Source: a virus
Length of the DNA: 48,981 nucleotides
Direction: 5' to 3' (one strand)
IMG/VR virus record: IMGVR_UViG_3300050029_000513
Location: 1 to 48,981 of that record
The notes under the pieces are model-generated. The model was not told where the DNA came from, made no database searches, and saw nothing but the letters and a program-made list of their open reading frames with translations. Position numbers and translations under genes: made by a program. This document shows, piece after piece, positions 10,924-48,981 of the stretch; the stretch's first letter is position 1, and every line of letters starts with the position of its first letter.

Positions 10924-11490
10924 ATGGCAGGCAAGCACCCCGACTTCCACGCGCTGAGTCTCGAATCGAACCAAGGGCGCATTCGCGTCCTGAAGACGCC
11001 AGTGCACGTGTCGAGTGCATTTGTCGTTGCCACGACGCCTGAGGCGAATCGGCCGGCTGCACTCCAGGTCGAAGGTTTGTGGGACACCGGCGCGAGCGGC
11101 ACGGTCATCACCCAGCGGGTCGTCGACGCCTGCGGACTGCAGCAAACGGGCATGGCCAAAGTGCGAGGCGCGTACGGCGACGTGACAGATCGGCCGACGT
11201 TCCTCATCAATCTGATCTTGATGGGCCGAGTTCAGATCGAGGGATTACCGGTGAGCCTCGGAGAGCCTCAGGGCACCGACCTCCTGATCGGAATGGACAT
11301 CATCACGCTGGGCGACTTTGCGATCACGCACGAACACGGAAAGACATTTTTCTCGTTTCGAATTCCGTCGTGCCACACGATCGACTACGTCAAGCAGGCG
11401 CGTCACCATCGTGAGTCGAAGGAAGCCGAGGCCGCAAAAAAACAACGCGGCGGTGGATCGTCGACCAATCCAGGCAAGCGACCGCGCTAA
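10924..11490 (+). CDS. Retropepsin-like aspartic peptidase
   Basis: 188 aa. The catalytic motif 'GLWDTGASGTVIT' (DTGAS at 54-58) and a downstream 'TDLLIGMDIITLGDFAI' mark a retropepsin-fold aspartic peptidase, which is active as a dimer because only one DTG is present. The C-terminal 35 residues are basic and probably disordered. There is no signal peptide, so it is cytoplasmic. It pairs with the preceding DUF5678 gene; bacteria also carry this pair outside phages. There is no reverse transcriptase nearby, so it is not part of a retroelement. Confidence 0.82.
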   Translation: MAGKHPDFHALSLESNQGRIRVLKTPVHVSSAFVVATTPEANRPAALQVEGLWDTGASGTVITQRVVDACGLQQTGMAKVRGAYGDVTDRPTFLINLILMGRVQIEGLPVSLGEPQGTDLLIGMDIITLGDFAITHEHGKTFFSFRIPSCHTIDYVKQARHHRESKEAEAAKKQRGGGSSTNPGKRPR

Positions 11491-12086: not shown

Positions 12087-12136
12087 TCATCCACGTGCCA
12101 GGGCAATACCGTCCGGCCAGCATGGAGCAAGTCAGT

Positions 12137-12598
12137 ATGTCGAAAGCGGTCCGCCTTCCGAAGTGGTGCAGCATCGTTCGCACCAATCCCGCCCTCTACG
12201 AGAAAGAGGCGTTTTCACACCCGCACATTCAGGCTCCGAGAGACGCCGTGGCGCTGCTTCGCCCGTTCCTCTCGCGGCAAGAGGTTGAGCACGTCGTGGT
12301 GATCTGCCTCGACAGCCAGCACCGTGCGATGGCCGTCACGCAGGTCACGAAAGGGCTCCTCAATTCGTCGCTGATCCATCCGCGTGAAGTGTTTCGCATA
12401 GCCGTCGCGATGGGTGCCGCTGCGATTCTCGTCGCGCACAATCATCCGAGTGGCGACCCGTCGCCAAGCGCGAATGATCGTGTGGTCACCGAACAGCTAG
12501 CGGCCGCTGGCCGGGTGCTCGACATTCCGGTTCACGATCACATCATCATTGCCGGCGAAGATCGCTACACCAGCTTTGCCGAGGCAGGACTCCTATGA
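12137..12598 (+). CDS. radC: RadC/JAB-type (MPN+) protein
   Basis: 153 aa. 'VVVICLDSQHRAMAVTQVTKGLLNSSLIHPREVFRIAVAMGAAAILVAHNHPSGDPSPSANDRVVTEQL' is the RadC signature, with the JAMM zinc motif HNHPSGDPSPSAND. It lacks the N-terminal helix-hairpin-helix part of chromosomal RadC, as mobile-element copies often do. The start chosen is ATG 12137 (GGAG nine bases upstream); an ATG at 12122 is possible. The role is unproven: an isopeptidase-like metalloenzyme, common on phages and plasmids, possibly linked to DNA repair or anti-restriction. Confidence 0.88.
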   Translation: MSKAVRLPKWCSIVRTNPALYEKEAFSHPHIQAPRDAVALLRPFLSRQEVEHVVVICLDSQHRAMAVTQVTKGLLNSSLIHPREVFRIAVAMGAAAILVAHNHPSGDPSPSANDRVVTEQLAAAGRVLDIPVHDHIIIAGEDRYTSFAEAGLL

Positions 12599-18015: not shown

Positions 18016-18037
18016 AGTTACTGCAGCTGTCTCAGTT
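18010..18037 (-). other. 28-nt shared leader block, copy 1
   Basis: On the minus strand it begins AACTGAGACAGCTG and ends GTAACTGCGGCG, with all 28 bases identical to 35911-35938 and 44591-44618. Its 3' end is the 5' arm of the terminator. It contains a CAGCTG palindrome and the inverted repeat GCAGT-A-ACTGC. In this copy a 28-base insert with two CGGCCG palindromes separates the block from the -10; in the other copies the gap is 7-9 bases. Confidence 0.9.
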
Positions 18038-18065
18038 GTTCGGCCGGTGGTTCGGCCGCTCATTC

Positions 18066-32793: not shown

Positions 32794-34281
32794 CTAGCCG
32801 TTCGCGATGTTGCTGATGACGCCGAGCGTGAACGTCGCGTAGTGCTGGAGCACCTCGTCCGCGTACACGCCGTACTCGTAGGCCCTGGTGCGCAGCGGCC
32901 ACTCGAGCTGGTAGTACTCGCGGCGGGTCTTCACCTGCATGATGTTCGCGACCCCGTTGAGCGGATACGGGATCGAGTCGGCCGTCAAGAGCATCGTGCC
33001 GGCCGTCAGGTTCGGGTGCACCTCGACGTTCACCATCGTGTTGGTGATCGGGTTAAGCAGTCCGCTCACCCGCACACCACCGGTCACCGCATGCGTGCCG
33101 GTCGCATCGGCCGTCAGCCGATAGAGCGGCGCGCCGTTGTTGGCGATGATCTTCTTCGTGATGTTCTTGGACTCCTGGCCGTTGACCCAGAGCACGTCGG
33201 GCGAGAGGCGGTAGTTGTCCCAGAAGTACTGACAGGCCGTCACGAACTCGGCGATGTTGCCGGCGCCGTCGGACGTCAGCGGCGTCCCGGTGCCGGCGGT
33301 CCCGGCCGGCTGCGCCGAGATATAGGCGCCGGACCCTGACTTGGTGGCGAACGTCAAGAGCCCGTCCATCGTGGCAGCGTTCGCCGACAAGTCGGCGGCG
33401 GCCAGCGCGGAGGCGAGCTGGCTCGCACCCGGGTAGGCGATGAGCACCGCCGAGTTGATCGTGGTGATCTGAGCGAGGCGCTCGTTCGTCGCGGTTGCGC
33501 CGACGTACCAGGCGTAGGCGACGGCTCCAGGAATCACGGCGACGGTCGCGGCGATCGACCCGTTCGCACCGGTGACCGAGACCGTGGCATTCGCCGACTT
33601 CTGCGCAACGCCAGGGTTGATCGTGTCCGTCGAGGCGTCGGTGTTGGTCTTCGTGATCGCCGCGGCAGGCAATCCGCCAGCCACGCTCGAACGCCGGAAT
33701 CCATCCGGCGTCAGCGCGACGACGATGACCGAGGCCGCCGCCTGCGTCGCCATGCCTCCGACCGAGCCGGCGACCAGCACTGGAGTGCCGGTCGTGCCGA
33801 GCGCGTTCGACGAGTTCGCGTTGAGCAGCACAAACTCTTCGCCGATCATCACGGCGCGGAGCAGGTTGAGCGCTGCCGTCGCCTTCACATCCTGGAAGCC
33901 CTCGGCAGCGTAGTCGGCTTCGAACGTCACGCTGTCCTCGAGCCCGATGCCCTTGTACGTGGCGACGTAGCTCGCCGTCGCGGTGGTGACCAGACCACCA
34001 CGGTGCCCTTCCGAGACACTGACGTCGATCAACTGCGTGTTGATCGCCGTGACGGCCTTCCAGTTGGTGGCCGTGCCGCCGTTCCCCTTGACGCGCGGAA
34101 TCCTGTTCCGCAAAGGCGTCAGGACCGGGAAGAGCGAGAGCGCCGGCGCCTGGAGGTCGTACGCGACCAGTGCGGACGCCTGGGTGATGCCAGCCTTGTT
34201 GAGCTCCTGAGTCAGCACCGGGTTCGGCGAACCAAGCGCATCCTTCACGAGCTGCAGGCTTTCGGTGGAATTGACTTTCAT
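32794..34281 (-). CDS. Major capsid protein (HK97 fold) with internal insertion
   Basis: 495 aa. The N-terminal part 'AYDLQAPALSLFPVLTPLRNRIPRVKGNGGTATNWKAV' and the C-terminal 'YALNGVANIMQV...EYYQLEWPLRTRAYEYGVYADEVLQHYATFTLGVI'-type end fit HK97-like capsids of this class. Residues about 160-285 contain an Ig-like insertion ('NATVSVTGANGSIAATVAVIPGAVAYAWYVGAT'), making the protein larger than the family norm. It follows the protease-scaffold gene. Confidence 0.82.
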   Translation of the reverse strand: MKVNSTESLQLVKDALGSPNPVLTQELNKAGITQASALVAYDLQAPALSLFPVLTPLRNRIPRVKGNGGTATNWKAVTAINTQLIDVSVSEGHRGGLVTTATASYVATYKGIGLEDSVTFEADYAAEGFQDVKATAALNLLRAVMIGEEFVLLNANSSNALGTTGTPVLVAGSVGGMATQAAASVIVVALTPDGFRRSSVAGGLPAAAITKTNTDASTDTINPGVAQKSANATVSVTGANGSIAATVAVIPGAVAYAWYVGATATNERLAQITTINSAVLIAYPGASQLASALAAADLSANAATMDGLLTFATKSGSGAYISAQPAGTAGTGTPLTSDGAGNIAEFVTACQYFWDNYRLSPDVLWVNGQESKNITKKIIANNGAPLYRLTADATGTHAVTGGVRVSGLLNPITNTMVNVEVHPNLTAGTMLLTADSIPYPLNGVANIMQVKTRREYYQLEWPLRTRAYEYGVYADEVLQHYATFTLGVISNIANG

Positions 34282-34333: not shown

Positions 34334-35815
34334 TCAGACCGTGATTCGCTTGCCGCCGGTGGCGTGGACTTTCCGCATCACGCCGATCGGATCCTTTGGA
34401 TCTGGCTCGATGGGATCGCCTGATTTGTCGACTTCGCCCGCGTCGTCTGTCTTCGTGACCGTGGTGCGGACGACGCCTTTGCCCGGTGCGGGCTGCGCCT
34501 CGAGGAATGCGACCCTCTTCTGAAGCCCGTCGCGCTCGGTGGTCAGATCGGTGACGGTCTTTTCGAGTCCGGCGATCTTCTCGATCGATTCGGGCGCCGC
34601 GGCCGCGGATTTGTCGATCTCGCCAGTTGCCGCCTTTTTCGTGTCTGCGCAGCACGCACCGAGATTGGTCGCGGTGTCGTGCACCGTCTGGATCATCTTG
34701 AGATCAGCGGCGGAGTGGCGCTTGCCGGCCTTGGCCAGATCGCCCTTTGCGGCGAGCTCGATGACTTCGATCACCATGCCTTCGGGGATGATCGAGGCGA
34801 GCATCTCGTCCGTCTCTTCGGCGGACATTTTCTTGAAGATTTCGCAGAGCAGTTGGAGCGCCGTGCGGAGATCCGCCGGAACGGTCGACGCGTCCTTTTC
34901 CCAGCCGTTCTCCATCTCGACGTCCTGGGCGAGCCATGCGAGGCTCTGAAGGAGCGAGGCGAACGACGACACCGAGTACATGCCCTTGCGGAGATGCTTG
35001 AAGACCTTCTCCGCTGGCACTGCCGCAGCTGCCGCAACTGCCGCGGTGTCAGCGACGGCAGGAGCAGCTTCTACAGCCGGCGGGGCCGCAGCGGGCTTCT
35101 CTCCGGCTGGAGCGGCGGCAACGTCGGCAACCTTCTCGACGACCGGAGCAACCGGTGTGTCGACGACGAGCGCGCGGAGCTTCTTGCGGAATTCACTGAG
35201 CGGGGCGTCGGCCTTGGCCAGACCGTCGACTGCCTCTTCCGGCAGATATTCCTTCGTCAGGGAGAGCAGCTCGCCGACGGTGAGGTCATCCTTGTCGATG
35301 ACGGCCTTGAGGAGGCCGTACTTCTGGAAAGGCTTCTCTTCCGTTTCGGTCGCCGACTTGACGAGCGCGAAGTTCGCCGTCGGAACACACGGAAAGTCGA
35401 CCAGGGAGATTTCGCTTGGGCTGGCGGTGTATCGCGTCAGCGTCGAGTCGGTCGGATCCTTCCACTTTTTGACGTAGGCGCCGCCGATCGAAAACCCGGT
35501 GTAGACGCCATCGACGCATTTCTGCCATTCGTTGTCGTCGACGATCTTCGTGCCGATATCGATCGACTTGGCGGCGTCATCGGAGTTGAACGAGATCACC
35601 TTGCCGGCGGCGACCTTGCCATGCATCGCGCGGATGTTGCCGAGCGACTTGCCATCCGTGACCTTTTCGAATCCGGCGGACCAGTCGCGGAACAGCGGCA
35701 GCGAGGTCTCGTAGTCGAAGATTTCCTTCGCGCGGTCGGCGACCTCGGCAACGGCCTGGCCCCAGACTTCGCGCTTCTCGACGTCGACCTTCGTGATCTT
35801 TGCGAAGAGCTTCAT
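34334..35815 (-). CDS. Prohead protease fused to scaffold-like domain (XkdF-like)
   Basis: 493 aa. The N-terminal 160 residues are an HK97-type prohead protease: 'MHGKVAAGKV' with the catalytic His and 'ASPSEISLVDFPCVP' with the Ser. An Ala/Pro-rich linker (about 215-275) and a long helical C-terminal region with coiled coil ('IEKIAGLEKTVTDLTTERDGLQKRVAFLEAQ') would act as scaffold and be digested during maturation. It is the first gene after element copy 2. Confidence 0.82.
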   Translation of the reverse strand: MKLFAKITKVDVEKREVWGQAVAEVADRAKEIFDYETSLPLFRDWSAGFEKVTDGKSLGNIRAMHGKVAAGKVISFNSDDAAKSIDIGTKIVDDNEWQKCVDGVYTGFSIGGAYVKKWKDPTDSTLTRYTASPSEISLVDFPCVPTANFALVKSATETEEKPFQKYGLLKAVIDKDDLTVGELLSLTKEYLPEEAVDGLAKADAPLSEFRKKLRALVVDTPVAPVVEKVADVAAAPAGEKPAAAPPAVEAAPAVADTAAVAAAAAVPAEKVFKHLRKGMYSVSSFASLLQSLAWLAQDVEMENGWEKDASTVPADLRTALQLLCEIFKKMSAEETDEMLASIIPEGMVIEVIELAAKGDLAKAGKRHSAADLKMIQTVHDTATNLGACCADTKKAATGEIDKSAAAAPESIEKIAGLEKTVTDLTTERDGLQKRVAFLEAQPAPGKGVVRTTVTKTDDAGEVDKSGDPIEPDPKDPIGVMRKVHATGGKRITV

Positions 35816-35834
35816 TCCAGCGCTCCGGGAAATG

Positions 35835-35864
35835 AAAAGGCGGCGTGAGTGCCCTCACGTCGCC
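35835..35864 (-). terminator. Second terminator-like hairpin before the protease gene
   Basis: An 11-bp stem with one mismatch (35864-35854 with 35849-35839 on the minus strand) and a 4-base loop is followed by UUUU (35838-35835). It lies 20 bases upstream of the protease start and overlaps sequence complementary to the first terminator, so the two hairpins compete with a longer alternative pairing. Confidence 0.65.
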
Positions 35865-35876
35865 CGGAGCGCCAAC

Positions 35877-35915
35877 AAAAAAACGGCGCGAGCACCCGGT
35901 GAGGGCGTCACGCCG
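35877..35915 (-). terminator. Leader terminator, copy 2
   Basis: On the minus strand CGGCG (35915-35911) pairs with CGCCG (35888-35884), with inner pairing CACC/GGTG, followed by seven U (35883-35877). It immediately follows the shared 28-nt block and precedes the capsid/tail operon. Confidence 0.82.
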
Positions 35916-35938
35916 CAGTTACTGCAGCTGTCTCAGTT
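35911..35938 (-). other. 28-nt shared leader block, copy 2
   Basis: Identical over 28 bases to 18010-18037 and 44591-44618. It lies 9 bases after the -10 hexamer, so the predicted transcript begins at or just before it and then enters the terminator. Confidence 0.9.
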
Positions 35939-35947
35939 GTGATGTTC

Positions 35948-35976
35948 AGTGTACGCGCATGCCCGAGCGGCGTCAA
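35948..35976 (-). promoter_or_regulatory. Late promoter, copy 2
   Basis: On the minus strand TTGACG (35976-35971), a 17-base spacer and TACACT (35953-35948) form a strong sigma70-like promoter. It is positioned between the end of the 86-aa gene and the shared leader, and drives the capsid/tail operon if the terminators are overcome. Confidence 0.78.
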
Positions 35977-47609: not shown

Positions 47610-48001
47610 CGCCAGCCTTCCGGCAGCTCGCAGTTCGCTGGCGCGTCCGCGAACATCGGCGCAATGTCGACGTCAGTGAATCCCGCCAGGCCGCACCCAA
47701 CCCGAGTGACAGCGAATGTCAGCTCAGGATGTGCAATCGCGATCGCCAGGAATCGCGCGACATGGCCGGCCACCTGATCGATCGACAGCGACTCGATGTG
47801 GTCATCCTTGGTCGGAATGCCGTACGACCGGCCCATGAGGCCTTCGCCCGTTCCCCACTTCGCGCCGTACTCCTTCCACGCCACCCGCGCAGCGCCACCG
47901 CCATGGACGCCAGCGCGGTTGGACCCGAAGACGAAGACCACCTTCGGGTCCTGCATCAGGACGGTGACGCGCGCGATCTCTCGCTGATCGAGCGCGTTCA
48001 C
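47606..48001 (-). CDS. Macro-domain-like protein
   Basis: 131 aa. 'VVFVFGSNRAGVHGGGAARVAWKEYGAKWGTGEGLMGRSYGIPTKDD...FLAIAIAHPELTFAVTRVGCGLAGFTDVDIAPMFADA' is the phage/bacterial macro-like pattern (FGSN.aG.HG.GAA...YGA..G.GeGl.G.sYaiPTkd ... vT.iGcGlAG). It is probably an ADP-ribose or NAD-metabolite binder or hydrolase; an anti-defence role is possible. ATGA overlap with the repeat protein upstream. Confidence 0.8.
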   Translation of the reverse strand: MNALDQREIARVTVLMQDPKVVFVFGSNRAGVHGGGAARVAWKEYGAKWGTGEGLMGRSYGIPTKDDHIESLSIDQVAGHVARFLAIAIAHPELTFAVTRVGCGLAGFTDVDIAPMFADAPANCELPEGWR

Positions 48002-48981
48002 TTCTTGCCTCCGCGCTTGGCAAGCGCCTTTGCCTTTCGCTTTGGCGCGCTCGACTTCTTTGCCTTTGGGGCTGGCTTAGCCGGTTCGGCAGCCGTCCGC
48101 GGCAGCGCCGCGAGAACCATCTCCGTCGTCGGTGCGATCACGCCGGCGACTGGCTCACCGTTGCGATCAACCTCGAAACACGGACCGCACCGCGGCGCCT
48201 TGACCTTCTCCAGATACTGGCCGTTCGGGTGGACTACGATCTCGTCGACGCGGATCGGGCAGCCGGCGAACCGAGTCCCCGCCGTGTGGAAGGCCAGCGC
48301 CATCACTGGGCACGGAGAGAAGTGCAGGCCGCCTCCGCATTCGATCTCCGGATTCCAGTCCGGCGCTTTGGGACTGACGCCGGGCGCGTACCCCATGCCG
48401 TGCGGTGATGTGAAGTCCTCATTCAGCGCCTTGTACAGGACGACCACGCCATCGACGATGTCCAGTCCGTAGTACTCGCACCACTTCTCTGCCGTCGAGA
48501 TATCGACGGTCGTCTGCCGTCCACCGTCAGCCTTGCCGCCGCCGCGGAGCAGAACTGCGACGTTCGCGGTTGCCTTGGCACGCACGCCAGCGGACGCGAT
48601 TTGGATCTGGGCGTACGCCCAAGCCTCGACGTGCGACGATCCCCGAGCCACGACGTGCGACGATCCCCAAGCCACGACGTGCGACGATCCCCGAGCCACG
48701 ACGTGCGACGATTCCCGAGCCTCGACGTGCGACGATCCCCGAGCCACGACGTGCGACGATCCCCAAGCCACGACGTGCGACGATTCCCAAGCCTCGACGT
48801 GCGACGATTCCCGAGCCACGACGTGCGACGATTCCCAAGCCTCGACGTGCGACGATTCCCGAGCCACGACGTGCGACGATTCCCAAGCCACGACGTGCGA
48901 CGATTCCCTAGCCTCGACGTGCGACGATCCCCGAGCCACGACGTGCGACGATTCCCGAGCCACGACGTGCGACGATTCCCA
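47998..48981 (-). CDS. DUF7666-like protein with N-terminal 8-residue repeats (5' end outside window)
   Basis: At least 328 codons; the true start lies beyond the window edge. The visible N-terminal part is about 15 copies of an octapeptide [RW][EG]SSHV[VE]A, then 'AYAQIQIASAGVRAKATANVAVL', and a C-terminal domain 'VVLYKALNEDFTSPHGMGYAPGVSPKAPDWNPEIECGGGLHFSPCPVMALAFH' that fits DUF7666, ending in a basic Lys/Ala tail. Such repeats are expected to form a beta-solenoid. The function is unknown; it is linked to a macro-domain gene. Confidence 0.7.
   Translation of the reverse strand, partial: WESSHVVARESSHVVARGSSHVEARESSHVVAWESSHVVARESSHVEAWESSHVVARESSHVEAWESSHVVAWGSSHVVARGSSHVEARESSHVVARGSSHVVAWGSSHVVARGSSHVEAWAYAQIQIASAGVRAKATANVAVLLRGGGKADGGRQTTVDISTAEKWCEYYGLDIVDGVVVLYKALNEDFTSPHGMGYAPGVSPKAPDWNPEIECGGGLHFSPCPVMALAFHTAGTRFAGCPIRVDEIVVHPNGQYLEKVKAPRCGPCFEVDRNGEPVAGVIAPTTEMVLAALPRTAAEPAKPAPKAKKSSAPKRKAKALAKRGGKK
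48627..48981. repeat. 24-bp tandem repeat array (about 15 units, continues past window)
   Basis: Units start at 48627 and recur every 24 bp with core CGACGTGCGACGAT. Variation is confined to a few positions per unit; all but one of the differences change an amino acid (R/W, G/E, V/E), while the SSHV codons are invariant. Repeats are in frame with the encoded octapeptide and continuous, with no spacers. Confidence 0.95.

Follow-up and report, generated by a model that had tools for sequence, protein, structure and literature searches.

A repeated leader motif ahead of three phage terminators and a hairpin predicted to hide the Shine-Dalgarno sequence of the capsid-tail operon

In Q-type late-gene antitermination, exemplified by the Q proteins of phages lambda and 21, an intrinsic terminator lies downstream of a sigma-70 promoter and must be overcome before the late structural genes can be expressed (PMC6606751). 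In Pseudomonas aeruginosa, a promoter-proximal terminator is bypassed with a dedicated protein, AlpA (PMC9371919), and GafZ, which controls the phage-like structural genes of the Caulobacter gene transfer agent, bypasses a downstream terminator (PMC11150451). The binding elements of Q, AlpA, and GafZ lie between the -35 and -10 elements (PMC6606751, PMC9371919, PMC11150451). A literature search for the arrangement described below found only these three systems. Antitermination can also involve RNA: the put RNA of phage HK022 is a conserved leader element that lies before a terminator, as does the 22-nucleotide motif reported here. At the level of translation, Shine-Dalgarno-sequestering leaders form a general class in which a stem pairs the Shine-Dalgarno sequence with an upstream complement.

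We examined the minus-strand leader upstream of the gene at 35815-34334 in the 48,981-base IMG/VR contig IMGVR_UViG_3300050029_000513 (the window). The features of this leader and of the operon that it precedes are as follows.

35948 to 35976, minus strand: predicted sigma-70-like promoter, TTGACG-17-TACACT, identified by its match to the consensus
35916 to 35937, minus strand: 22-nucleotide leader motif ACTGAGACAGCTGCAGTAACTG, matched exactly at three leaders
35877 to 35916, minus strand: predicted intrinsic terminator T1, with a 14-bp stem at 35916-35883 and U7 at 35883-35877
34334 to 35815, minus strand: head protease/scaffold-type gene, first gene of the capsid-tail operon, with PHROG matches to head maturation protease
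32794 to 34281, minus strand: major capsid protein gene, with tblastn matches to proteins annotated as major capsid protein in Arthrobacter phages Mufasa8 and Sonali

Homologues of the protease/scaffold gene align from residue 1, in agreement with a start at 35815. The major capsid protein gene is the next large gene and has hundreds of viral relatives; at the nucleotide level, the window has no match among GenBank phage records. Elsewhere in the window, at 12095-12598 and 10924-11490, the plus strand, opposite most genes, carries a gene with a RadC-like JAB domain and one for a retropepsin-like aspartyl protease. The minus-strand open reading frame at 47998-48963 contains at least 12 overlapping tandem copies of a 24-nucleotide unit (48546-48981, reaching the contig end) that code for an octapeptide repeat, VARESSHV-like. 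Positions 1-63, at the other contig edge, hold the 3' part of a tRNA according to Rfam (RF00005), with none reported by ARAGORN; this partial tRNA is possibly an integration site or a contig boundary.

The 22-nucleotide motif occurs in three identical copies, all on the minus strand, at 18036-18015 (copy 1), 35937-35916 (copy 2), and 44617-44596 (copy 3), with none expected in shuffled sequences. A TA[C/T]ACT hexamer lies 7 to 28 nucleotides ahead of the motif in all three cases; the accompanying predicted -35 is fair at copies 2 and 3 and poor at copy 1. Each copy is followed by a terminator, and no other terminator-like hairpin that a full scan found in the window is as strong as these three (-30.8, -28.4, and -22.4 kcal/mol). 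The only other terminator-like hairpins below -14 kcal/mol on the gene strand are H2, described below, and an irregular one at 11442. A promoter scan of the window gave no clear excess over shuffles; this and the poor -35 at copy 1 count against the reading of the leader that we favor below. At copy 1, an extra hairpin of the type CGGCCG-aaccac-CGGCCG lies between TACACT and the motif (18037-18064).

The exact motif had no match in IMG/VR and none in the other loci that we fetched (L001 to L003 being the window itself). Among the loci of 10 kb or more fetched up to that stage, a scan for leader elements that recur ahead of terminators, limited to even hairpin lengths and so liable to overlook some, found a comparable set in the window alone. 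The looser pattern AACTG..AACTG..terminator gave 13 matches, one of which is L004, the nearest relative by capsid protein (60% identity). Two further matches, L208 and L213, have a hairpin ahead of a gene in what we take, from its proteins, for a Mu-like phage; the rest, which have no terminator hairpin before the T-run, we took as chance.

At the same gene boundary, L004 carries TTGCGC-17-TACACT, a different leader, and a terminator of -21.9 kcal/mol, so that the promoter-leader-terminator order recurs at its capsid operon despite the diverged leader sequence. At the place in L004 that corresponds to the extra copy-1 hairpin (about 2940-2975) lies CGGCC-aaaaca-CCGGCC, although the L004 leader is a capsid-operon leader. 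Across the 85 distinct relatives, a terminator-like hairpin of varied sequence precedes the protease/scaffold start by 12 to 41 nucleotides in 13 and the capsid start by 25 to 57 nucleotides in 11. The pre-capsid-start hairpins of L094, L098, L100, L117, L125, and others lie inside the head-gene cluster. The arrangement of a hairpin before a head gene thus recurs but is not the rule, and the 72 relatives with no terminator before the protease/scaffold gene count against the reading of the leader that we favor. Relatives found via the metallopeptidase, terminase, and tail genes yielded no close leader.

That reading, to which we assign a probability of roughly one-half, is of a late-operon leader that requires terminator read-through and has, at copy 2 alone, an added hairpin that hides the Shine-Dalgarno sequence. 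Transcription would start at the sigma-70-like promoter, pass the 22-nucleotide motif, and meet T1 about 25 nucleotides downstream of the predicted start. Since T1 lies only about 60 nucleotides ahead of the start codon, with no promoter found in between, expression of the operon probably depends on polymerases that read through T1. Read-through could occur by leakage or with an antitermination factor acting on the shared promoter or leader. In favor of this reading we count the three exact motif copies with their strong terminators, the recurrence of the order in L004, and, as set out below, the early folding of T1, the local fold of the full-length leader, the Shine-Dalgarno complement unique among the starts tested, the inverted copy of T1, and the lack of the added hairpin at copies 1 and 3 and in L004. 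Computation shows how the leader is laid out, which sequence repeats and how significantly, how the RNA is predicted to fold, in what order its segments are made, and that promoter and terminator come in the same order in L004. That read-through is needed, that translation is lowered, and that an alternative stem described below is a by-product we infer, and all of our functional statements are likewise drawn from sequence and folding models.

The leaders may work like the Q, AlpA, and GafZ systems, and several features bear on this comparison. As in Q-type regulation, copies 2 and 3 and L004 have an intrinsic terminator downstream of a predicted promoter; copy 1 has a -10 and a poor -35. There are three leaders here rather than one, however, and the sequence that they have in common lies downstream of the -10. 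In contrast to the AlpA and GafZ systems, the spacer between -35 and -10 is not visibly conserved between the copies; by eye, the spacers of copies 2 and 3 and L004 have no evident shared repeat. As candidates for a -10-like pause element, the best matches to TATAAT score 3/6 at copies 1 and 2 and 4/6 at copy 3 and in L004. Pfam and PHROG searches over part of the genes matched no antiterminator gene and no Q gene, the record possibly being a fragment; we count this, too, against the favored reading. Because of the position of the common sequence, the spacers, the weak pause matches, and the lack of a recognized antiterminator, we do not file the leaders with the Q, AlpA, or GafZ systems. For a lambda N-type nut site, the best boxA match (CGCTCTTTA) in the leader is 6/9. 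The motif differs from the put RNA of HK022 in that it is identical in all copies, so that no covariation is visible, and in having no Rfam match.

Between T1 and the first gene, copy 2 has two further predicted structures.

35835 to 35863, minus strand: second hairpin H2, weakly terminator-like, with its stem at 35863-35840 and U4 at 35838-35835
35819 to 35873, minus strand: predicted Shine-Dalgarno-hiding stem, in which 35873-35864 pairs with 35828-35819 and H2 sits on top

The initial annotation had described a second hairpin with UUUU downstream of the copy-2 terminator; indeed, such a hairpin is present on the minus strand at -16.7 kcal/mol, with pair probabilities of about 0.88. T1, at -22.4 kcal/mol for the counted stem, has stem pair probabilities of mostly about 0.99. 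We found no counterpart of H2 at copies 1 and 3 or at the corresponding L004 site, which bears out the further claim that these structures occur only before the protease/scaffold-capsid-tail operon. H2 caps a longer stem, and the 10 bp beneath it have predicted pair probabilities of 0.92 to 1.00 (0.64 at the innermost pair). The Shine-Dalgarno GGAG (35826-35823), 7 nucleotides ahead of the AUG, lies within this stem at 35828-35819 and in the local fold has an unpaired probability of at most 0.0004. The stretch that separates T1 from the gene is thus an inverted, imperfect copy of T1 that, according to these models, folds as H2 on the 10-bp stem, and this stem would hide the Shine-Dalgarno sequence and probably lower translation of the first gene.

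The start at 35815 is the only one of 39 tested in the window with 9 or more perfectly complementary bases within 100 nucleotides upstream; here, a 10-nucleotide perfect complement covers the GGAG. In a shorter fold, its mean accessibility is sixth lowest of the 39, which indicates that low accessibility of a start is nothing out of the ordinary in this phage, whereas the perfect complement is. As in Shine-Dalgarno-sequestering leaders, the predicted stem pairs the Shine-Dalgarno sequence with an upstream complement, but it has no ligand or known family and derives its sequence from the terminator ahead of it, copied in inverted orientation. Ribosomes or coupled translation can open hidden Shine-Dalgarno sequences, and we count this against the favored reading.

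The inverted-copy relationship is evident from an alignment of T1 (35916-35883, minus strand) with the plus strand at 35835-35874, which scores 34. Shuffles gave a mean of 18.7 and a maximum of 33 (2,000 shuffles), and none of 1,311 other window positions sampled reached 34. The T1 sequence on the minus strand, GCGGCGTGA-CGCCCTCAC..., and the plus-strand sequence, GCGGCGTGAGTGCCCTCAC..., are imperfect copies, and together they form an imperfect inverted repeat about 80 nucleotides long with its center near the U-tract. This relationship is one reason to consider that the hairpins are mostly neutral or protect the mRNA, with T1 serving as punctuation or as a 5' stabilizing hairpin and H2 being a chance inverted copy (a quasi-palindrome from template switching) of little effect. 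The varied-sequence hairpins before protease/scaffold and capsid starts in relatives also fit such an explanation. However, that one motif recurs unchanged three times, always with a terminator, argues for a use of the leaders as a whole, and no other start tested in this phage has a 10-nucleotide perfect Shine-Dalgarno complement. We regard the neutral or protective explanation as unlikely, though it is the most serious of the alternatives to read-through combined with a hidden Shine-Dalgarno sequence.

The two local hairpins can be replaced by a longer pairing.

35841 to 35915, minus strand: alternative pairing, in which 35915-35908 pairs with 35848-35841 and 35906-35899 with 35858-35851, all 16 pairs being exact

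The two perfect complements that had been proposed hold base for base (CGGCGTGA at 35841-35848 with TCACGCCG at 35908-35915, and GCCCTCAC at 35851-35858 with GTGAGGGC at 35899-35906). As had also been proposed, the two-hairpin and long-stem structures are mutually exclusive, and they are nonrandom by a composition null as well. When the base pairs of T1, H2, and the Shine-Dalgarno stem were redrawn at the same composition (n = 2,000), the cross-duplex averaged -16.4 kcal/mol (standard deviation, 3.6; minimum, -29.5), and no redraw reached the observed -34.4 kcal/mol. In the alternative fold, the 3' arm of T1 also pairs with the anti-Shine-Dalgarno stretch, which adds a second layer. The strong cross-complementarity of T1 and H2 stems from the imperfect inverted-copy relationship of the two; one copying event would make all of it at once, so its strength alone is no evidence of selection.

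Mutually exclusive pairings of this kind had led the initial annotation to propose an attenuator, in which the long stem would act as an antiterminator controlling read-through at the copy-2 terminator. The order of synthesis speaks against this proposal at T1. The T1 hairpin and its U-tract are complete when the RNA is 58 to 65 nucleotides long, and the competing segment (35858-35841) is made at 84 to 101 nucleotides, 19 to 36 nucleotides after the U-tract. As the U-tract has been passed by then, the alternative pairing cannot set read-through of T1. Further, the reading frames of the leader start at GTG or TTG and none has a Shine-Dalgarno sequence that would mark a leader peptide, and no Rfam riboswitch or leader family matched, the partial tRNA at 1-63 being the only match in the window at the gathering threshold. 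We therefore consider a classical attenuator highly improbable, although the mutually exclusive pairings on which it was based do exist. The alternative pairing could influence only the weaker H2 or the Shine-Dalgarno sequence.

Growing transcripts were folded with standard parameters at 37°C. For transcripts of about 92 to 118 nucleotides, the alternative fold is slightly favored (for example, -52.1 versus -50.7 kcal/mol), but after synthesis of the Shine-Dalgarno region, in the leader up to the AUG, the local hairpins win (-61.9 versus -56.1 kcal/mol). With some coding sequence added, the alternative pairs have an equilibrium probability of about 0.003, or about 0.3% of molecules. The gap of 5.8 kcal/mol between the folds is small relative to the null (15.8 kcal/mol; standard deviation, 4.3), with 1.7% of redraws as small.

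These folds allow for a switch coupled to read-through, in which escape at T1 without the T1 hairpin would also turn on translation. The free 5' arm of T1 would pair with H2 once the latter is made, so that H2 could not terminate, and the 3' arm of T1 would trap the anti-Shine-Dalgarno stretch, leaving the Shine-Dalgarno sequence in a much weaker hairpin. The stability of the alternative fold at about 92 to 118 nucleotides, with its second layer, and the small gap between the folds are consistent with such a switch, as is the partial opening of the Shine-Dalgarno sequence when T1 and H2 pairs are penalized. Yet the switched state makes up only about 0.3% at equilibrium, it is not kept in L004 or at copies 1 and 3, and sequence copying alone would yield the alternative pairing. 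We judge the coupled switch improbable, and slightly more so the specific proposal that antitermination, as a single event, would both let polymerase through and open the ribosome-binding site of the capsid operon. A role for the alternative pairing at H2 or the Shine-Dalgarno sequence, transient or protein-assisted, is conceivable. In the finished leader the alternative stem is a minor conformer, and it probably arose as a side effect of the inverted copying. In these models, the Shine-Dalgarno-hiding stem is the more robust of the two features.

With attenuation unsupported at T1, the result taken alone is a modest one. If the leaders function as we infer, an uncultivated phage coordinates three operons via a shared promoter-leader-terminator module. 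Such a module, if real, would resemble the Q, AlpA, and GafZ systems except that its common sequence lies in the transcribed leader. The additional hairpin at copy 2 would illustrate the way in which an inverted terminator copy can add translational control to a single operon.
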